This document shows positions 27,035-38,369 of a DNA stretch of 64,000 bases, piece after piece. The stretch comes from Anaerolineales bacterium (lineage in GTDB: Bacteria > Chloroflexota > Anaerolineae > Anaerolineales > UBA11579): assembly GCA_019637675.1 (NCBI GenBank), contig JAHBVE010000002.1:1-64000 (forward strand). The letters run 5' to 3'. The notes under the pieces were generated by a model. That model was not told where the DNA came from and did not search any database. It was given only the letters and a program-made list of their open reading frames with translations. Both the position numbers and the translations under genes were made by a program. Within the stretch, counting starts at the first letter, position 1, and every line of letters begins with the position of its first letter.

Positions 27035-27724
27035 ATGCAGCAGATCATCGCCGTTGGCTCAGGATATAAAGCCATTGGCCGCCGCGGCATGCAGCTGGAG
27101 CGTTACCTGCTGGCTGCCAGCCGCGCTCGCAGGCCGCGCCTGTGCTTCCTGCCCACCGCTGCCGGCGATCTGCCACGCCACATCAAGCGTGTGACCCGCG
27201 TATTCGGCGAGCTAGGCGCACGCGTTTCCACCCTGACCCTCATCCAACCCAATACGGCCGACGTGGCCAAGCTTCTGCTGGCGCAGGACATCATCTGGGT
27301 CGGCGGCGGGAATACGCGCAACATGCTGGCGCTCTGGCGCGCCTGGGGTGTGGACGAAGCGCTGCACAAGGCCTATAACAACGGCGCGGTGTTGGCCGGC
27401 GGCAGCGCCGGTGCCATCTGCTGGTTTGAGCAGGGCATCACTGACTCCGTGCCGGGCAAGCTGTTGCCGATGGATTGTCTCGGCTGGCTGCCCGGCAGCT
27501 GTTGCCCGCACTACGACACGGAGCCGGGCCGTCGCCCCATTTTCCGCAAGCTGGTCGCCGCCGGCAAGGTCAAAGCCGGCCTGGCGTTGGATGATCTGGC
27601 CGCGGCTCACTACATCAACGGCAAGCTGCACAAAGTGCTGGCCTTTGGCCGCGGCGCGCAGGCCCATCGGGTCCAGCGCAAGCGCGGCCGCGCACACGAA
27701 ACACTGCTGGAACCGAGCCTGTAA
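27035..27724 (+). CDS. Peptidase S51 family protein (dipeptidase E-like)
   Basis: The 229-aa protein has the S51 layout: glycine-rich N-terminal strand (AVGSGYKAIGRRGMQLERY), LCFLPTAAGD, IIWVGGGNTRNMLALW and the nucleophile elbow AVLAGGSAGAICWF with Ser in GGSAGA. S51 members are Asp-specific dipeptidases or cyanophycinases. Substrate is uncertain. The final 25 codons and the following bases are duplicated just downstream (27773-27900) with a frameshift, so the copy is not translated in frame. Confidence 0.86.
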   Translation: MQQIIAVGSGYKAIGRRGMQLERYLLAASRARRPRLCFLPTAAGDLPRHIKRVTRVFGELGARVSTLTLIQPNTADVAKLLLAQDIIWVGGGNTRNMLALWRAWGVDEALHKAYNNGAVLAGGSAGAICWFEQGITDSVPGKLLPMDCLGWLPGSCCPHYDTEPGRRPIFRKLVAAGKVKAGLALDDLAAAHYINGKLHKVLAFGRGAQAHRVQRKRGRAHETLLEPSL

Positions 27725-27900
27725 CACTCGTGTCGCCCTGAGCGTAGCGAGGGCATTCGCTTACCCGATCTCGGCCGCGGCGCGCAGGCCCATTTGGGTG
27801 CAACGCAAGAACGGCCGCGCACTCGAAACACTGCTGGAGCCGAGCCCGTAAGACTCGTGTCACCTTGAGCGTAGCGAAGGGCATTCGCTCACCTGATCTC
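27647..27900. repeat. 126/128-bp tandem duplication of the S51 gene 3' end
   Basis: Copy 1 (27647-27772) contains the last codons of the S51 gene, its stop and the word CCTGAGCGTAGCGAGGGC; copy 2 (27773-27900) repeats the same order with scattered substitutions and two single-base insertions. The first insertion shifts the reading frame, so copy 2 is a pseudogene fragment. The shared GAGCGTAGCGA-AGGGCATTCGCT tail resembles a dispersed intergenic repeat and may have driven the duplication. Together with the terminator at 27978 this accounts for the roughly 310-bp gap. Confidence 0.85.
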
Positions 27901-28826: not shown

Positions 28827-28944
28827 TGTCGAAATGCAGGCCGCATTTTAGCCCAATCGCCCCCTGCCGTCAATTCCCACCCACCCAAAATAGGCACACT
28901 TCTTGCAACATGGCATTCACTTTGGTCTTTTCTCGGAGGAAGAC

Positions 28945-29274
28945 ATGTACGTACTGAACCAATCTGACACCCTGTTGTTGATGGCCGCCGCCCTGTTCTT
29001 CTTTGGCATGTGCGCCCTGGCCATGGGCCTGTTCGTGCTGGTGACTCGCACCCACAGCAAGGACGTCAAAAAGCTGAGCGCCAATGCTGCCCAGCTTGTG
29101 CAAAAAGGCATCGCAGAAGACGTAGCCCAGCTCGTCAGCGGCGCCACCGCGCTGTTGGATGGTGTCCAGCAGCTGGTCAAGACCGCAACCGGCGTGGGCA
29201 TTTTCCTGACCTCGCTCGGCCTGGCCCTGATGGCCGGCGGTTTCTGGGTTGTCTTGCAAGTCAACTGGGCCTAA
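28945..29274 (+). CDS. Small two-TM protein, first gene of the TPR/caspase-like operon
   Basis: The 109-aa protein has membrane helices at about residues 9-33 and 82-106. They flank a soluble amphipathic helical middle (KDVKKLSANAAQLVQKGIAE ... LLDGVQQLVKTA). I know no family for it. The ATG at 28945 follows GGAGGA. The stop is 27 bp before the giant TPR gene, and all three genes share one strand with a single terminator at 37662. It might anchor the TPR partner at the membrane, by inference only. Confidence 0.78.
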   Translation: MYVLNQSDTLLLMAAALFFFGMCALAMGLFVLVTRTHSKDVKKLSANAAQLVQKGIAEDVAQLVSGATALLDGVQQLVKTATGVGIFLTSLGLALMAGGFWVVLQVNWA

Positions 29275-29301
29275 CAAAACCAACACAGAACGGAAGCACG
29301 C

Positions 29302-32300
29302 ATGAGCTCATTCATCGCAGACCTCAAAAACGCCCTCCCGCAAAGCGAATGGCCGCTAGTCGTGGCCGCCCTGCGCAACGAGCCCACCCTGTGGGCTGCG
29401 TTGCAGGAGGCCGAGTTTGGCACACAAGCCCTGCAAGCCGCCGGCGTCCAACGCATTGCGTGGTCGCCGGCCTTCCTGGGCTTGCTGCGCCTGGGCCAAC
29501 CCGGCCTGCATGAGGAACTGCGTGCTGAGTTGCTGGAGCCAGTCGCGGAGAAGCTGCGCTATCAGGCCGCCAGCGCCTATGAGCAAGTAGCCACCCAGGG
29601 CGCCGGCGCCGCGCCCGGCCTGGAGCAGGCCGCGCTGCTGGCGTTGGCCCTGCGTGAGCGCCGCCGCGTGCTGGGCAACTGGGAGCAGCTGACCCAGGAT
29701 CTCAGCATTGCCCCCGCCGACTTCTGGAAGCTGCCGGTCGCCATACTGTTCGGCTTGCTGCCGGAACCGCAGGAACTGCTGGCCGCCCTGTTGCGCGCCA
29801 GCGATGCTGATCTGCACAAGCTGGGCCTGCACGCCCTGGTCAGCAATCCGCTGACCCTCGAAGAGCAGAGCACCGCGCTGCTACAGACCATCGCCGAGCA
29901 TCCCGTGCCGCAATTCATCGCCGTGCTGCGCCAGCTGGCTCACATGCACTTGCCGTTGGCCCAACAGGCCGCCCGCTTCGTGCTGCACAAGTTGGATACC
30001 GAGCCGGAGGGCGAAGCCAGCGAGCTGAGCCAGATCGAGCGCTTGCTGCTGCAGGCCGAGATCCGCCAGCTCAGCGGCCAGCCCGAAGAGGCTGCGCCGC
30101 TGCTGCACGCCGCCTGGGGCGCCGCGCAGCGCGTGCAAGCCGAGTTGGCTGGCAAGCTGGCCGAGAATGCCGCCGCCCACGCTGACACGCCCGCCCTGCC
30201 GGAGAGCGCCGCTGCCGCCGCCAAGAGCGCCGGCAGCAAGCACCCCGCCGCGCTGATCGCCGCCGCCCGCGTGTCGCTGAAGTCTGGCGATGCGGCCGAA
30301 GCCCAGCGCATGGCCGCCGCCGCGCTGGCCGCCGCCCAGGACAGCCCGGCCGGCGAGAACGCAACCTTGATGCGCCAGCTTGGCGAAATTTTTGTCGATC
30401 TCAAACTGGGCGAGGCCGCCCGCCAGGCCGCCGAACTGGCCGTGCAGCATGCTCCCAACGACGCCGACAGCGCAGCCTTCCTGAGCCGCGTGATGGCGCT
30501 CTGCAACGAGCCGGAGCGCGCCCTGCAAGCCGCCCACCTGGCCGCCGCCCTGGCTCCCGAGCGCACAGATCTGCGCCGTCAGCTGGCCAAGGCTATGCAG
30601 GCCAACCAGCAAGGCGCGGCCGCCTACAGCGAATGGCAGGCTGTGATGGCCCAGGATGACCAGCCCAGCTTCGAAGACGTGTACGGCCTGGCCCAGGCCG
30701 CCCTGGCCGCCGACGCGCTCGGCGAATGCATCCAGGCCTGCCAGCGCGTCCTCGCTGTGCAAGCCACCCACGGCGGCGCACACGCGCTGATGGGCAAAGC
30801 CCTGGTAGCCCAGGGCGATGCCAACAGCGCCATTGAGCATCTGCGCCGCGCCACCGAGCTGGCCCCGGCTCAACACGAAGCCTGGATCGTGCTGGCAGAG
30901 CTGCTGCGCGACCAAGGCGATATGCAAGCTGCCCGTGACACGCTGTTCAACGCCCAGCAGTTCACCAAGCCCAGCGCAGAGCTGCAATACCTGCTGGGTG
31001 AGATCTATTTGGCGCTGGCCGAGAACGAAGCCGCTCTCGGCGCCTTCTCCCGCACTGTGGAATTATTGGCTGAGCCCGCCGCTCAACCCAACACCTATTT
31101 GAACCAGCGCGCTGCATTGCAGCTCGGCCGCCTGCAGCGCATGCTCGGCCACACCAACCAGGCCCGCCACACACTGGAGCGCGGCGTACACACCTTCCCC
31201 CAGCATGCCGGCTTGCAGCACGAGCTGGGCAAGTTGTTGCTGGCCGCCAAAGAAGCCCCCGCCGCGCTGGCCGCCCTGCAGGTCACCCTGCAGGCCGAGC
31301 CGCTCAACACCGAAGCCATGCTCGACGCGGCCCAGGCCCAACTCCTGAACCACGCCCCGCTCGAAGCTGAGGCCTTGCTGCGCGCCGCGCTGGAACAAGG
31401 CGCGTCGGCGCTCGCCACCGCCCTGCTGGGCGAAGCGCTGGCCGCACAAACCAAATACACCGAAGCCATCCACGAGTTCGAAGCCGCCCTGCGCTCTGAG
31501 CTGGCCGAGACGCCCAGCTGGAACAAGCGCCTGGTGCTCGGCAAAGCGTTGGCGCAAGCCAAGCTAGGCCAGCACGAGGAAGCCCTCAGCATCCTGGAAG
31601 CTTTGGATGCCACCGCTCCGGGCGACCCTGACGTACTGCACGCGCTGTGCATGGCCTACAGCCAGGCCGGCCGCAACGAAGAAGCCTTCCAGATCGCCAG
31701 CAAGGTCTACCTGACCAGTGCCAAAGACGAGCAGGACGTGCTCTGGTTTGCCGATCAGGCCGAAGCGCTCGGCAAGGGTGAAGATGCCCGCCGCGCCCTG
31801 GGCAAGGGCATCGCCGAGCACAACTCCGCCGCCCACATCCTGCGCCTGGCCGAACTGGAATGGCAGGACGGCACGCACGAGAAGGCCGTCGACACGCTGG
31901 CCGCCCTGCTGCGCAGCGCCAACAGTGCGGCGCTGGCCAAGGCCGGCCGCTTCCTGCTGGAGCGCCGCGCCGCTGCCACCAGCGTGTCGTATTTCAAGCG
32001 CGCCCTCGAGTTGGACGAGAACCCGGCCCTGCTCGATGCGCTGACCGAGGCCTACGAGCACAGCCAGCAGTGGACCGAGGCGCTGGGCACGATCGAGAAG
32101 AGCCTGACCGCCGAGCCGGGCCAGCCCGCCCTGCTGGCTCGCAAAGCTCGCGTGCTGCAGGCCGCCGGCCGCCCGCAGGCTGCGCTCGAAGCATTGGAGC
32201 AGGCCATCGAACGCATGCCCGATGATCTCGGCCTGCTCGCCAACAAGGCCCGCCTGCTGCGCGCCGCCGGTGAATGGGCCACCGCCCTCACCGCCGCCGA

Positions 32301-34419
32301 AAAAGCCTTCCACCTGGATGTGACCCACCAGCCGCTCCTGCAGCTGGCCGTCGAGCTGGCCGTCGCCACCCTGCAGCCCGAGCGCGCCCGTGCCTTGCTC
32401 GCCGAGGCCAAGCTCAGCGCCGCGCCGGACGCCGCGCTGGCCTGCCTGCAAGCCGAGCTGGCCCTCGACAGCAATGAAGAGCTGGCCGCCGCCAAGGCGC
32501 TGGCCCCTGCGCTGGAAGGCGACGAGCAGTCGCCGCGTGTGCTGGCCCTGCAAGCCCAGCTGGCCGCCCGCCGCGGTGACCGCACCCAGGCCGAGCACTA
32601 CTTGAATACCGCGCTGGAGTTGGTCAACACCAAGTTCAGCGAGCCGCAAGACGCCTTCACCCTCATCAGCCTGGCGCGTGCCGCCCAAGGCCTGATGAAC
32701 TATGAAGCCGCCGTGAACCTGCTGCAGTTGGCCGTCAAGCTGGTGCCCAGCCAGGCCCTGGCGCAGTTCGCCCTGGGCAAGGCCATCGTGCAGCGCGCCG
32801 AATGGCAGCAGTTGTGCGCCGCCAGCGACGCCGTATCCGGCGCCCCCGGCGCAGACGCGGCCAGCCCCGAGGCGTACGCCGCGGCCCGCGCCGCTTTCTC
32901 CGCCGCGCTCAGCACCGCGCCGTTCGCCGCCGCCCGCGCCCAGTTGGAGCACTGGCTGGCCCGCGCCGCCCTGCGCTTCGGCCATGACGCCGAAGCCGGC
33001 AGCCTGCCCACCGGCTACCCCAGCAGCGCCGGCGAAGCCGCCGCCGTGGTGCACGCCGCCCGCGTGCGCGGCGACCTGCGCACCGTGCAAGAGAACGCCA
33101 AGGGCTTCTGGCGCTCACCCGAAGTGCTGGTCGAGCGCGCCCTTGCCTTCGGCGACGCCGATGCCAGCAGCGCCCTGAAATGGCTGCTCGGCGCGCTGGA
33201 GCAGAAGCCCCACACCGCGCCCTATCACGCCCTGGCCGCCCGCTATGCCCTGCAAGCCAGCCAGCCGCACGCCGCGCTCGAGCATATCCGCCAGGCGATC
33301 GCCCTCTCCCCCGTGCAGGCCCTTTGGCACGCCTTCGCAGGCAAGTTGCTGCAGCAGGCCGGCGCACTGGCTGATGCGATCGATTATTTGCAACACGCCG
33401 TGGCCATGCAGCCCAGCGAAGCTGAGCGCCACTACGAGCTGGGCCAGGCCCAGATGGAAGCCGAGCAGTATCCGCTAGCCCAGAAGTCCTTCGAGCAGGC
33501 CGCCAAGCTGCAGCCCAAGTCCGGCGCCTACATGCTGGCGCTGGCCCAGGCCCACAAGCAGGCCGGCGATCTGAAGCAGGCCAGCGAGAAGGCCGCCGCG
33601 GCCCACAAGCTGGCGCCCAATTCCAACACGGCGCTGGTATTGCAGGCCGAGATCGCCCTACACAACAACGAGACCGCCGCGGCCAAGAGCCTGGCCGAGA
33701 GCGCCTTGCGCCTCGCGCCGACCGACAGCCACGCCCTGAACCTGTACGCAGAATGCCTGCACGCCGTGGGCGAAGTTGAAGACGCCCTGGCCGTGCTCGA
33801 ACGCTCCGAGCAGTACGCACAAGACAAGCTGCCCATCCAACTGCGCCGCGCCCAACTGCTGCCGGCCGAGAAGGGCCTCAGCGAAGTGCTGCGCCTGAGC
33901 AAGGCCAACACGGAGCGCCCGGATGTGTACCTGACCCTGTCCGAAATACTGGCGACCACCGGCGAGACGATGGACGCCATCCAGGCCGCCCAGCGCGCTG
34001 CCAAGAAAGCCGACACGCTCCCGCTGCCGCAGCAAGCCCGCCTGCACCTCCACCTCGGCAAGCTGCTCAAGAGCAGCGGCCAGTTGGACCAATCCTTGCA
34101 TCACCTGGATGAAGCCGCGGCCCTCGCCCCGCACCTCAGCGATGTGCAGATCGAGCGCGGCCAGGTCTTCCTCAGCCGCCGCCAGTTCAAGCAGGCCATG
34201 CAGGCCTTCGAGCTGGCCGCCGCCGCCGCCCCCCACAGCCCGCAGCCGCATCTGCAGGCGGCCCAGGCGCTGAAGGACGTCAAAGACTACAACGCCGCCG
34301 AGGCGGCGCTGCGCAAGGCCGCCCAGTTGGCGCCGCGTGAGCGCAGCATCCAACGCCAGTTGGCCGCCGTGATCGCTTTGAATTTGATCCACCAACCGCA
34401 GGAAGTGAGTGCGCTATGA
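29302..34419 (+). CDS. Giant tetratricopeptide-repeat protein (1705 aa)
   Basis: Almost the entire 1705-aa sequence reads as helical hairpins with TPR spacing (for example AHALMGKALVAQGDANSAIE, HYELGQAQMEAEQYPLAQKS, ALLARKARVLQAAGRPQAAL). It is rich in Ala, Leu, Glu and Gln. There is no signal peptide or membrane segment, so it should be a cytoplasmic superhelical scaffold. Residues about 1-200 are less repetitive and may form a separate cap. It overlaps the caspase-like gene by 4 bp (ATGA), indicating translational coupling. No enzymatic motif is seen. Cargo is unknown, but the coupled protease-like protein is the obvious partner. Confidence 0.88.
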   Translation: MSSFIADLKNALPQSEWPLVVAALRNEPTLWAALQEAEFGTQALQAAGVQRIAWSPAFLGLLRLGQPGLHEELRAELLEPVAEKLRYQAASAYEQVATQGAGAAPGLEQAALLALALRERRRVLGNWEQLTQDLSIAPADFWKLPVAILFGLLPEPQELLAALLRASDADLHKLGLHALVSNPLTLEEQSTALLQTIAEHPVPQFIAVLRQLAHMHLPLAQQAARFVLHKLDTEPEGEASELSQIERLLLQAEIRQLSGQPEEAAPLLHAAWGAAQRVQAELAGKLAENAAAHADTPALPESAAAAAKSAGSKHPAALIAAARVSLKSGDAAEAQRMAAAALAAAQDSPAGENATLMRQLGEIFVDLKLGEAARQAAELAVQHAPNDADSAAFLSRVMALCNEPERALQAAHLAAALAPERTDLRRQLAKAMQANQQGAAAYSEWQAVMAQDDQPSFEDVYGLAQAALAADALGECIQACQRVLAVQATHGGAHALMGKALVAQGDANSAIEHLRRATELAPAQHEAWIVLAELLRDQGDMQAARDTLFNAQQFTKPSAELQYLLGEIYLALAENEAALGAFSRTVELLAEPAAQPNTYLNQRAALQLGRLQRMLGHTNQARHTLERGVHTFPQHAGLQHELGKLLLAAKEAPAALAALQVTLQAEPLNTEAMLDAAQAQLLNHAPLEAEALLRAALEQGASALATALLGEALAAQTKYTEAIHEFEAALRSELAETPSWNKRLVLGKALAQAKLGQHEEALSILEALDATAPGDPDVLHALCMAYSQAGRNEEAFQIASKVYLTSAKDEQDVLWFADQAEALGKGEDARRALGKGIAEHNSAAHILRLAELEWQDGTHEKAVDTLAALLRSANSAALAKAGRFLLERRAAATSVSYFKRALELDENPALLDALTEAYEHSQQWTEALGTIEKSLTAEPGQPALLARKARVLQAAGRPQAALEALEQAIERMPDDLGLLANKARLLRAAGEWATALTAAEKAFHLDVTHQPLLQLAVELAVATLQPERARALLAEAKLSAAPDAALACLQAELALDSNEELAAAKALAPALEGDEQSPRVLALQAQLAARRGDRTQAEHYLNTALELVNTKFSEPQDAFTLISLARAAQGLMNYEAAVNLLQLAVKLVPSQALAQFALGKAIVQRAEWQQLCAASDAVSGAPGADAASPEAYAAARAAFSAALSTAPFAAARAQLEHWLARAALRFGHDAEAGSLPTGYPSSAGEAAAVVHAARVRGDLRTVQENAKGFWRSPEVLVERALAFGDADASSALKWLLGALEQKPHTAPYHALAARYALQASQPHAALEHIRQAIALSPVQALWHAFAGKLLQQAGALADAIDYLQHAVAMQPSEAERHYELGQAQMEAEQYPLAQKSFEQAAKLQPKSGAYMLALAQAHKQAGDLKQASEKAAAAHKLAPNSNTALVLQAEIALHNNETAAAKSLAESALRLAPTDSHALNLYAECLHAVGEVEDALAVLERSEQYAQDKLPIQLRRAQLLPAEKGLSEVLRLSKANTERPDVYLTLSEILATTGETMDAIQAAQRAAKKADTLPLPQQARLHLHLGKLLKSSGQLDQSLHHLDEAAALAPHLSDVQIERGQVFLSRRQFKQAMQAFELAAAAAPHSPQPHLQAAQALKDVKDYNAAEAALRKAAQLAPRERSIQRQLAAVIALNLIHQPQEVSAL

Positions 34420-37400
34420 ACGACACCATGAAGAAACACATCACCGCTGGCAAGGCCGTAGACCGCGCCGCAGTATTGACTCTGCTGCAGGTCGGCCTGA
34501 ACGCGGGCGAGATGCGCTTTGTGCGCCAGGTCGCCGAGGATTGGCTCAACGCCTATCCCTACGACCTGCATGTGGAGCTGCTGCGCGCCCAGGCCCTCAT
34601 CAAAGACAACAAGGCCGAGGTGGCTTTCAAAGTATTGCGCCGCCTATGCGAGCTGGATCCGGAATTCCTCGAAGCCCAGGAGCAGCTGGCCAAGCTGTCG
34701 CGCCGCGTCAAGCCGGCCGTTGCCGAGGCGGCCCGCGCCGCCGCCACACTGCTGCGCCAGCCCTTCCAGGTTCCGACCGATATTCAAGACTGGGCGCAGC
34801 ACGCCCTGCGCGCCCAGCAGGCCTTCAAGGTCGGCGATCTTGAGCAGGCCGAGCTGCACGTGCAGGCCGCCCTGCTGGCCCAGCCGCCCTCGCCGTTGCC
34901 CGCGCTGCTGCACATCCAGATCGCCCAGGCCCAGGGCCTGACCTGGCTGGCGATCGAGAATTTGGTCGAACTCTACAGCGGCAGCTGGCCGCACTGCCTG
35001 CAGCTGCGCCTGTTGCACGCCAACTTCCTGATGGAAAGCGGGCAAGAGAACGCCGCGGTGGATGCGTTGCACGACTGCGCCGCCGAAGATGTCAGCGGCC
35101 AGGTGGCCCGCCGCATGTGGGGCGCCGGCCACCGCTTCGCAGCCCTGTGGCCCGCCGGCCTGCAGCAAGCCATCACCACGCCCATCCCCGCCAAGGTGGC
35201 GGCCGGCCTGGGCTGGAACCAGATCGATACGCTGACCTATGCCCTGCCCGCTGAGGCCAAGGCCTTTGAGGCTCCGCTGGAGTCGACCCATGTGCCCATG
35301 CTCGACGCCGGCGCGCTAAAGACCCGCGAAGTCAAGAAAGATTTTGCCAAGCGTATCAAGGACCAGACGCCGGTGCTGGATGAAGAAGCCCATGCCCCGA
35401 TGTTCGACGGCAAGGCACTGCGTTCTGGCAAGGTCAAGGCGGAGTTCGCCAAGTCGATCGACATCGATGACGCGCTCGAGTTGACCCCACCGCCCGCGAT
35501 CCCTGACGAGTCGTACGAGCCCCAGGTGTCGTACGAAACCCAGGTTTCGTACGAACCCGAAGTGGCCTACGAGCCCGAAGGGTCGTACGAGTCCGAAGGC
35601 CACGGTCTACTGAGCGACGAGCTGGTCGCCGATATGGCCGCCCAGGCCGAAGTCGAGTCGAAATCGATCTTTGACGCCAGCGAAGCCCACGCACCTGGCC
35701 TCTCCAACAGCGAGCCGTCCGATCTCGATCATCTCGTCGAATCCAAAACGATCGACGAATTCGGCGAGAACGAAGCTCACACGCCAGGCACCGACGATCA
35801 CGCGGCCGCAGGTGGTGAGGATTTTTTGGACCTACAGCCTGAACCATCCATCAGCTATAGCAATGACTCTGCACAACCCTACGCTGACATGGGCGGGCCG
35901 GATTTTTTGGAGGCCAAGTCTGAACCCGCCGTCGCCCATAGCGACGAAGCCATCAACGAGACCCTGCAGCACGCGCTTTCAGCCCTGCCGGAGACCCTAA
36001 TCGATCTCGAAGAGGTCAACACCGCCACAGCCGAGTCTCTGCGCCTGCGCGCAGATGGCCGCTTCCCGGCCTACATCCTGCTGAGCTCCAAAGAGAACCT
36101 GGTGCGCCAATACGGCATGGACGGCTTCGCCAGCGTTGATGCCAGCCTGCGGGCCGTGGCCGCCGCTACCGACGCGCTGCCCAAATGGGGCGCGTATGTG
36201 GTCTATGTAGATGACCCCGCCTGCATGGATGCCTTCGGCCTCAACGCCATCAGCGGCAACGACCCCTGGGCCATCAAGCACCTCCTGGCTGACCTTGACG
36301 AGGCTCTCCGCCAGAACGGCGAGATGATCGGCGCGCTCATGATCGTAGGCGGGCCAAAGATCGTGCCCTTCCACCACCTGCCCAACCCAGTCGATGATGA
36401 CGACAAGGATGTGCCATCCGACAATCCCTACGCCAGCCTGGACGAGAATTACTTCGTGCCCACCTGGCCTGCCGGCCGCCTGCCGACCGGCACCGAGAAG
36501 GATCCAGCCGCGCTGCTGAAAGCCCTCAACCGCATCGAAGCCAGCCGTGACACGGTCGTGGCGCAGCAAGACCCGGTGCGCCAGCTGATCACGCGCCTGC
36601 TGATGATGTTCGGCCTGTGGAAGCCCAAGCGCAGCAGCTTTGGCTACACCGCCCAGGTGTGGCAGCGTGCGTCGCACTCGGTCTACCGCACCATCGGCGA
36701 GCCCAAGCGCCTCAGCCTCAGCCCGCCCACCCAGACCGGCAAGCTGCCCAAGGAAGCTAACAAGGCGCTACAGGTCGCCTACTTCAACCTGCACGGCGTG
36801 GAAGACGGGCCAGACTGGTACGGCCAGCGTGACCCGCTCCTCACCCCCACCGGGCCTGACTATCCTGTGGCCCTCAGCCCCAGCGATGTGGTCAATCACG
36901 GTCGCGCCCCGCAAGTCGTCTTCAGCGAAGCCTGTTTCGGCGCCAACATTTTCAACAAGACCGTAGACAACGCTCTTGCGCTCAAGTTCATCGACTCGGG
37001 CAGCAAGGCGGTCGTAGGCTCCACTGTCACCTCATACGGCGCAGTCTCCACGCCACTGATCGCCGCCGATCTGCTGGGCCAGACCTTCTGGCGTCTACTC
37101 AACGAAGGCCACCCCGCCGGCGAAGCCCTGCGCCGCGCCAAGATCGCCATGGCGCAGACCATGCACCGCCGCCAGGGTTACCTGGACGGCGAGGACCAGA
37201 AGACCCTGATCTCCTTCATCCTCTACGGCGACCCGCTGGCCCAGGTCAGCACCGATGCCAGCCTACCCAAGCGCATCCTGCGCGCCGAGAGCAGCGAGAT
37301 GAACACGGTCTGCGATCTGCCCGATGCGTTCGGCCTGGGCGACAACATCCCCATGGAGTCTCTGCCACAAGACACCCTGGCGACCGTCAAGGCTGTCGTA

Positions 37401-37649
37401 AAGGAGTACTTGCCCGGCATGCAAGGCAGTGAAGTCAGCGTCAGCCACGAGCACACCAACTGCCAGAACCACAACTGCCCGCTGCCGCATCCGCACAACA
37501 CTGGCGCCAAGCGCACCATCATGGCGCCCAGCCGCAGCCTGGTCACCCTCAGCAAGAAGGTCCAAGGCGCCGGCCGCATGCACCCCAAGTACGCCCGCAT
37601 CACCATGGATGCCCAGGGCAAAGTCGTCAAGCTGGCGGTCAGCCGGTAA
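34416..37649 (+). CDS. TPR and caspase-fold (C25/gingipain-like) putative protease, 1077 aa
   Basis: Residues about 1-250 are TPR-like helices. Residues 285-530 form an acidic, low-complexity linker with two related segments (PMLDAGALKTREVKKDFAKR at 294 and PMFDGKALRSGKVKAEFAKS at 328) and five SYE-type hexapeptides (366-395). From about 548 the sequence resembles peptidase C25 (FPAYILLSS, MIVGGPKIVPFHHLPNP, YFVPTWPAGRLP). It includes a likely catalytic His793 in YFNLHGVEDG and Cys840 in VFSEACFGAN, then VVGSTVTSYGA and FILYGDPLA. There is no signal peptide, unlike secreted gingipains. The C-terminus has a His/Cys cluster HEHTNCQNHNCPLPHPHN (1011-1028). Protease activity is inferred from the His/Cys pair. 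A strong terminator follows. Confidence 0.8.
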   Translation: MNDTMKKHITAGKAVDRAAVLTLLQVGLNAGEMRFVRQVAEDWLNAYPYDLHVELLRAQALIKDNKAEVAFKVLRRLCELDPEFLEAQEQLAKLSRRVKPAVAEAARAAATLLRQPFQVPTDIQDWAQHALRAQQAFKVGDLEQAELHVQAALLAQPPSPLPALLHIQIAQAQGLTWLAIENLVELYSGSWPHCLQLRLLHANFLMESGQENAAVDALHDCAAEDVSGQVARRMWGAGHRFAALWPAGLQQAITTPIPAKVAAGLGWNQIDTLTYALPAEAKAFEAPLESTHVPMLDAGALKTREVKKDFAKRIKDQTPVLDEEAHAPMFDGKALRSGKVKAEFAKSIDIDDALELTPPPAIPDESYEPQVSYETQVSYEPEVAYEPEGSYESEGHGLLSDELVADMAAQAEVESKSIFDASEAHAPGLSNSEPSDLDHLVESKTIDEFGENEAHTPGTDDHAAAGGEDFLDLQPEPSISYSNDSAQPYADMGGPDFLEAKSEPAVAHSDEAINETLQHALSALPETLIDLEEVNTATAESLRLRADGRFPAYILLSSKENLVRQYGMDGFASVDASLRAVAAATDALPKWGAYVVYVDDPACMDAFGLNAISGNDPWAIKHLLADLDEALRQNGEMIGALMIVGGPKIVPFHHLPNPVDDDDKDVPSDNPYASLDENYFVPTWPAGRLPTGTEKDPAALLKALNRIEASRDTVVAQQDPVRQLITRLLMMFGLWKPKRSSFGYTAQVWQRASHSVYRTIGEPKRLSLSPPTQTGKLPKEANKALQVAYFNLHGVEDGPDWYGQRDPLLTPTGPDYPVALSPSDVVNHGRAPQVVFSEACFGANIFNKTVDNALALKFIDSGSKAVVGSTVTSYGAVSTPLIAADLLGQTFWRLLNEGHPAGEALRRAKIAMAQTMHRRQGYLDGEDQKTLISFILYGDPLAQVSTDASLPKRILRAESSEMNTVCDLPDAFGLGDNIPMESLPQDTLATVKAVVKEYLPGMQGSEVSVSHEHTNCQNHNCPLPHPHNTGAKRTIMAPSRSLVTLSKKVQGAGRMHPKYARITMDAQGKVVKLAVSR
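35511..35600 (+). repeat. Five tandem 18-bp coding repeats
   Basis: Five in-frame copies starting TCGTACGA (one starts GCCTACGA) encode the hexapeptides SYEPQV, SYETQV, SYEPEV, AYEPEG and SYESEG in the linker of the caspase-like protein. Copies differ at third and some first positions. Copy number could vary between strains. Confidence 0.92.
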
Positions 37650-37661
37650 GGAAAAAAGCTA

Positions 37662-37709
37662 GCCAACAAAAAAAAGAGCTGCGATCTCTCGCAGCTCTTT
37701 TTTGTTGGC
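37662..37709 (+). terminator. Strong intrinsic terminator of the TPR/caspase-like operon
   Basis: AAGAGCTGCGA-TCTC-TCGCAGCTCTT is followed by TTTT. Outer arms GCCAACAAAA and TTTTGTTGGC extend the stem through the A/T runs, giving a long nearly perfect hairpin 12 bp after the stop codon. Confidence 0.93.
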
Positions 37710-37977: not shown

Positions 37978-37993
37978 TGCGCTCCCCAGCACT

Positions 37994-38369
37994 CGTAGGG
38001 GCGTACGCTGCTTCGCAGCGCAGCATGCTGCGCCCACACCAACCACCCGTGTCATTCCGACCGGATTTATAAACCTGCACCCGACCGCCGGACCCAGACC
38101 AGGGAGGAATCCTTATTCACTCATCTTCCAAACAGCGCGTGCCAAACCACCCGTAGAGGCGTAAGCTGCTTCGCAGCGCAGCATGCTGCGCCCACACCAA
38201 CCACCCGTGTCATTCCGACTGGGTTTATCAACCCGCACCAGACCGCTGGACCCAGACCAGGGAGGAATCCTTATTCACTCATCTTCCAAACAGCGCGTGC
38301 CAACACCACCCGTAGGGGCTTACGCTGCTTCGCAGCGTAGCGTGCTGCGCCCTAGACATCCACCCAACT
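37994..38369. repeat. Tandem direct repeat, period 158-159 bp, about 2.4 copies
   Basis: Copies begin at 37994, 38152 and 38311 (the last partial), each starting CGTAGRGGCKTAMGCTGC followed by two short palindromes (GCTGCTTCGCAGC and GCAGCATGCTGC). The rest of the unit includes GTGTCATTCCGAC, a CCAGACCAGGGAGGAATCC segment and AAACAGCGCGTGCCAA. Copies 1 and 2 differ at scattered positions. Direct repeats are far too long and contiguous for a CRISPR array. Confidence 0.88.

Follow-up and report, generated by a model that had tools for sequence, protein, structure and literature searches.

In bacteria, proteases with a caspase fold are familiar either as virulence enzymes that are secreted or as effectors of defence and cell death. 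Within the C25 peptidases, gingipains are secreted and PorU is a sortase, while the separase-securin system, which cuts cohesin, is eukaryotic. Here we describe a three-gene operon, P1-P2-P3, from a 64,000-nucleotide stretch of DNA (the window; contig JAHBVE010000002.1 of assembly GCA_019637675.1, positions 1 to 64,000, forward strand) of an Anaerolineales bacterium in the phylum Chloroflexota. It encodes a small membrane protein, a giant tetratricopeptide repeat (TPR) protein and a predicted caspase-fold peptidase. Predicted sigma-54 switches ahead of these genes and ahead of an altered second ftsZ suggest that they make up an undescribed machine, one with a likely part in envelope building or division. 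We see about an even chance that P1-P2-P3 is a membrane-tethered cytoplasmic protease complex, switched on by sigma-54 as a second FtsZ would be, which cuts a division or cell-wall protein and so drives a specialised septation or envelope-building step.

The P1-P2-P3 operon and its invariant dyad

P1 (28945..29274), P2 (29302..34419) and P3 (34416..37649) lie on the forward strand, separated by a 27-bp gap and then a 4-bp overlap; ORF (open reading frame) calls thus bear out the same-direction gene triplet proposed in a sequence-only reading of this DNA. P2 and P3 start with ATG, and P1 has an upstream in-frame TTG at 28903 and a ribosome-site-like 'cggagg' just 5' of the ATG at 28945. From that ATG, P1 is the 109-aa membrane protein of that reading, with two hydrophobic helices by hydropathy and a predicted role as membrane anchor. 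Its family of 44 ORFs from 43 loci shares the hairpin and a conserved loop of ~45 residues that, by eye, is basic at its start. P2 (1705 aa, a predicted scaffold) likewise stands as a TPR protein: Pfam TPR models match 13 stretches (PF14559, E 1.5e-39), with repeats across much of its length.

P3 (1077 aa) combines the TPR region, the acidic linker and the predicted C25/caspase-fold domain of that reading with a further C-terminal domain. Its N-terminal TPR region (34416..35219, residues 1-268) has only a weak Pfam TPR match, below cut-off (E 3.6e-4). The linker (35220..36053, residues 269-546) is acidic, with 61 D+E against 18 K+R in 278 aa. Its length is not conserved: the linker of the window protein spans 279 aa, the median over 121 aligned proteins is 81, and the long form is special to this species group. 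An 18-bp unit is repeated in 4.9 copies at 35510-35598, within the linker, at SYEPxV-like repeats; most relatives have far shorter linkers. The catalytic domain (36054..37250, about residues 547-945) takes a gingipain-type caspase fold in predicted structures, with C25 peptidases among the fold matches, which answers the fold part of the structural check proposed with the sequence-only reading. PF01364 (C25) is matched by 8 of 12 P3 members at E<=0.1 (best 2e-17), the window P3 itself having no Pfam match to it at E<=1, and precomputed PF01364 annotation is found in the 120 listed P3 homologues. The predicted catalytic His793 (NLHG, codon 36792..36794) and the predicted nucleophile Cys840 (SEACFGA, codon 36933..36935) are invariant in all 120 best-scoring homologues and also in 12 diverse ones. 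P3 is thus a putative C25-type peptidase that would cleave with this dyad. Elsewhere, genes for C25 peptidases with ~26% identity to the P3 catalytic domain lie on plasmids of Rhizobium and Bradyrhizobium.

P3 occurs in 50 of 61 genomes sampled from the order and in 38 of the 42 of good quality; these and the phylum counts below share ancestry and are not independent events. The gene order that the sequence-only reading proposed to check across Chloroflexota is conserved, with P1-P2-P3 contiguous in 31 of the 36 order loci read in context. The exceptions are two contig ends (L042, L066), one P1-P3 pair without P2 (L063) and two loci with P3 apart from P1-P2 (L056, L060). Across the phylum, 36 of 400 genomes have a P3-type match (E<=1e-10, some weak), and P1-P2-P3 is present in 11 of 20 P3-type loci beyond the order, where P2 has 2124-2549 aa. 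Among these outside loci, L167 has a 256-aa ORF between P2 and P3, and six (L159-L164) have P3 followed by the X gene described below but lack P1-P2 immediately 5' of P3; of these six, L159 and L162 are close to a contig end, and in L161 a TPR ORF runs off the contig end. P2 is in pieces in L170, and L173 and L174 have no visible operon. The operon features exceed chance because gene order and dyad are conserved far outside the species.

This distribution bears on the likeness to TPR-CHAT systems that was suggested at the outset. A Craspase-like or other caspase defence or cell-death system, in which P2 would sense a trigger, P1 or a membrane target would be cut and the cell would die or stop growing, is very unlikely in our judgement. 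What remains of the suggestion is the pairing of a caspase fold with a TPR partner, and Csx29 and SAVED-CHAT are among the fold matches. Moreover, the portions of PMC7159879 drawn on here describe caspase-bearing conflict systems in multicellular prokaryotes, including some Chloroflexi. However, CHAT (PF12770) scores only 15.1-16.1 bits on P3 proteins, under its cut-off of 24, and P3 is near-fixed in the order with constant architecture, strongly conserved dyad and gene order, and a context of division and wall genes. P3 has no mobile, patchy or defence-island distribution, islands not having been scanned gene by gene. No P3 relative was found in viral contigs, and PADLOC, run on P1-P3, gave no match to P1 or P3. 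The tandem repeats of the window include no CRISPR-like array; Cas7-11 was not searched for.

Co-occurrence with X and a divergent second FtsZ

A second locus, X-FtsZ2-s1-s2-s3, lies in the same genome ~150 kb beyond P3 (G000:C2, about 187.2-191.2 kb), and in many relatives X (~440 aa) and the FtsZ paralogue adjoin P1-P2-P3. X is present in 50 of the 61 order genomes, with P3 and X together in 46, neither in 7, P3 only in 4 and X only in 4. All eight discordant genomes are <90% complete or >5% contaminated, and among the 42 good genomes the same 38 hold both. In 17 of the 46 genomes a single contig carries the two genes <=10 kb apart, and X has an FtsZ gene <0.7 kb to its 3' side, in the same orientation, in 50 of 50 genomes. 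Those order genomes that lack P3 and X have one FtsZ only (11 of 11 tested, from families f11 and f6 and genome G026); G026 lacks both genes although its genus-mates G039 and G052 keep them. The co-occurrence is thus supported by three separate absences (f11, f6 and G026). Within the same order, an identical set of 12 genomes in the phylum sample carries P3 and X. Outside the order, full-length X was found in 8 genomes, always directly beside P3; the other 10 of the 30 phylum-sample genomes that match X have partial, weaker matches.

FtsZ2 is a distinct paralogue. In a tree of 50 sequences, one branch with support of 100/100 splits 20 FtsZ1 from 30 FtsZ2. The four FtsZ2 scanned have both the tubulin GTPase and the FtsZ C-terminal domain (PF00091 and PF12327), the GGGTG[TS]G signature is kept in 30 of 30, and most retain, by eye, a DIPAFLRR-like C-terminal tether peptide. 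The second T7-loop aspartate, which is required for GTP hydrolysis in E. coli FtsZ, is present in all 20 FtsZ1; at this position the 30 FtsZ2 carry H (19), N (6), A (1) or D (4), with H in the genome studied here. FtsZ2 is therefore predicted to be poor at GTP turnover. In another order, genome G176 has a strongly degenerate FtsZ directly 3' of P3.

The C-terminal domain of P3 (37368..37646, residues 985-1077, about 90 residues) is homologous to s1, the stand-alone protein encoded after FtsZ2. Both are predicted to adopt an alpha-beta4 shape that weakly resembles cystatin, PepSY and NTF2-like folds, and both end in S-R/K. In genome G111 (L173:8357-10461), a P3-type catalytic domain and an s1-type C-terminal domain are encoded side by side in two distinct ORFs. 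A common terminal domain on a C25 fold could also mean that P3 acts in maturation or sorting, as PorU does, with this domain as the sorting tag in the assembly of an envelope structure whose glycan part X and s3 would build. The family profile of X (X at L097:7251-8591) would fit, since its C-terminal part matches (E 5e-4) the repeats with which S-layer and Cwp8 proteins of clostridia bind the cell wall. Such a sorting role nevertheless seems improbable: by eye, with no predictor run, neither P3 nor s1 has an obvious signal peptide (T9SS genes were not searched for). X likewise has no obvious signal peptide by eye.

Predicted sigma-54-type promoters and division gene neighbourhoods

A sigma-54-type promoter match, AGGCACACTTCTTGCA (GG-N10-GC; 28892..28907, forward strand), ends 37 bp before the P1 start codon. 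In the window alone, matches with one mismatch are not rare (2 seen, 3.8 expected). The motif was chosen after this site and NtrC-type neighbours had been seen, and the window was excluded from the test set. Within the order, 16 of 28 non-duplicate loci have an element scoring >=6 of 7 ahead of P1, and 19 of 28 have one ahead of X, compared with 2 of 273 other genes of the same loci and no reversed motif in any set (Fisher p 3e-17 for P1 and 2e-21 for X, relatedness ignored). Outside the order, none of 10 tested P1 loci scores above 4. In the genome studied, GGCAY-N4-YTTGCA has 12 matches against 3 for the reversed pattern. Apart from the sites of the P1 and X operons, one (G000:C2:68295) precedes an RpoN-kinase-NtrC operon, one precedes a LytR-CpsA-Psr lipoprotein gene whose neighbour is weakly DivIC-like (E 8.6e-4, below cut-off), two precede a two-gene locus with a polysaccharide deacetylase, and one follows a gene read by eye as mraW, ahead of ftsI; the remaining five sites are unremarkable. 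That RpoN-PAS kinase-NtrC-type regulator operon lies just outside the window (L229:769-5374) and has its own sigma-54-type site.

Some relatives have genes for a histidine kinase and a response regulator of the sigma-54 type ahead of the operon, and RpoN directly precedes the kinase-regulator-P1 run in five (G045, G035, G031, G048 and G060, by coordinates). RpoN exceeds cut-off in 51 of the 61 order genomes. It is missing from sampled f11 (11 of 11, with one sub-cut-off match) and f6 (2 of 2), families that also lack P3, X and FtsZ2; G026 has RpoN without P3, X and FtsZ2, and four drafts with P3 (G052, G018, G019 and G023) have no RpoN match. The P1 and X operons are thus predicted to be under sigma-54 control within the order. 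The sections of PMC3162934 relied on here propose that sigma-54 controls the exterior of bacteria and report it from only some Chloroflexi.

In two genomes of one genus, from a lineage without RpoN and without the order-type FtsZ2, the operon is surrounded by genes for division or elongation. G190 has, on one strand, mraW, a membrane-looking protein, P1-P2-P3, a 128-aa protein in the ftsL position (no Pfam match), ftsI, a mur ligase, two mraY-type genes, murD, a 250-aa ORF, ftsW, murG, a mur ligase, ddl, ftsQ, ftsA, ftsZ and ftsZ; this run of named genes excludes ~0.95 kb before ddl, which an opposite-strand ORF covers in the ORF list. In G407, a run of mreB, mreC, a weak sub-cut-off mreD, a penicillin-binding protein and one 468-aa gene is followed by a fragmented P2 and by P3; no P1 was found at this locus. 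The division and cell-wall (dcw) and mre contexts are one case each, the flanks of other loci being partly annotated. Nevertheless, the division link does not depend solely on the order, because these neighbourhoods occur in a lineage without RpoN and that FtsZ2 type. The T7 aspartate is kept in both members of the tandem ftsZ pair at the dcw end of G190 (L207:1808-4371), the second of which differs at its C-terminus. In three f69 genomes, a membrane-looking protein of 386-482 aa with no convincing Pfam family precedes P1 (L208:1157-2317, L210:2854-4302, L211:11689-13110).

These links could instead be outputs of an envelope-stress signalling protease, with P3 cutting a regulator such as an anti-sigma factor at the membrane to turn wall genes on. 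We regard this as rather unlikely: the operon resembles a sigma-54 output and not an input, none of the neighbours covered by Pfam scans received the name of an anti-sigma factor, and the physical links are with FtsZ2 and, in one case each, with the dcw and the mre cluster.

As for the flanks of the operon in the window, where one strong terminator was noted earlier, a GC-rich hairpin with a T-run, a predicted terminator, can be read 3' of P3 on the forward strand at about 37662-37709, but a consensus terminator scan did not list it. A 158-bp unit is repeated 2.3 times (92% match) between P3 and smpB (37990-38352), and a 127-bp tandem duplication (2 copies; 27647-27900) starts inside the 3' end of ORF 27035-27724.

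Proposed function and comparison with known systems

In the protease complex proposed here, the P1 hairpin, with its loop predicted to be cytoplasmic, would anchor P2 at the membrane, the TPR superhelix of P2 would hold P3 and a client, and the caspase-fold domain of P3 would cut the client via the predicted His793/Cys840 dyad. Homology and shared predicted shape suggest that s1 may compete with or mimic the C-terminal domain of P3, acting as an inhibitor or docking factor in the style of securin and separase. Given the loss of the T7-loop aspartate in most members, FtsZ2 might form stable filaments that do not turn over, which P3 might dismantle. A more specific version is tentative and, in our view, possible but not probable: a Chloroflexota counterpart of the separase principle, in which a membrane-anchored TPR/caspase-fold machine, expressed through sigma-54 alongside a second FtsZ of impaired GTPase activity and a free copy of the machine's own regulatory domain, would reshape or release the septum. 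Such a cut could perhaps also act on the septal channels of filamentous members. Cryo-tomography of filamentous Chloroflexota has revealed septal channels, without homologues of known septal-junction genes according to the parts of PMC7332563 considered.

If the proposal is correct, the caspase fold gains a housekeeping or developmental role in bacteria, through a protease near-universal in one order and tied to FtsZ, sigma-54 and wall genes. In the separase-like version, P3 would be the first caspase-fold protease within a bacterial division apparatus, as far as we know. The proposal would also open the division biology of a large, hard-to-grow phylum, and controlled division-time proteolysis on helical-repeat scaffolds beyond separase would become testable.

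Compared with known systems, P3 differs from the C25 gingipains (RgpB, Kgp; PF01364) in the lack, by eye, of an obvious signal peptide, in its TPR fusion and its own C-terminal domain, and in an operon shared with genes for a hairpin protein of the membrane and for a giant protein of TPR repeats. In contrast to separase (C50), the repeat part here is mostly a separate protein, and P3 gave no match to the separase family in Pfam. TPR-CHAT/Csx29 (Craspase) and SAVED-CHAT have lower fold scores for P3 than C25 does, and P3 is near-universal in its order. vWA-MoxR systems and 'System 4', as set out in the passages of PMC7159879 used here, have a caspase-superfamily peptidase in common with this locus, and System 4 likewise has a membrane gene; here, however, the scanned neighbours include none named as vWA or MoxR, effectors are not shuffled, and P3 order and dyad are fixed. 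Archaeal FtsZ1/FtsZ2 and CetZ-like proteins in Dehalococcoidia have been described, and the three mentions of Chloroflexota in the portion of PMC9871819 covered do not concern this paralogue. Like second FtsZ paralogues and CetZ-like proteins, this FtsZ2 is a specialised copy of a duplicated FtsZ with PF00091 and PF12327; unlike them, it is linked to a protease gene cluster and in most members has no T7 aspartate.
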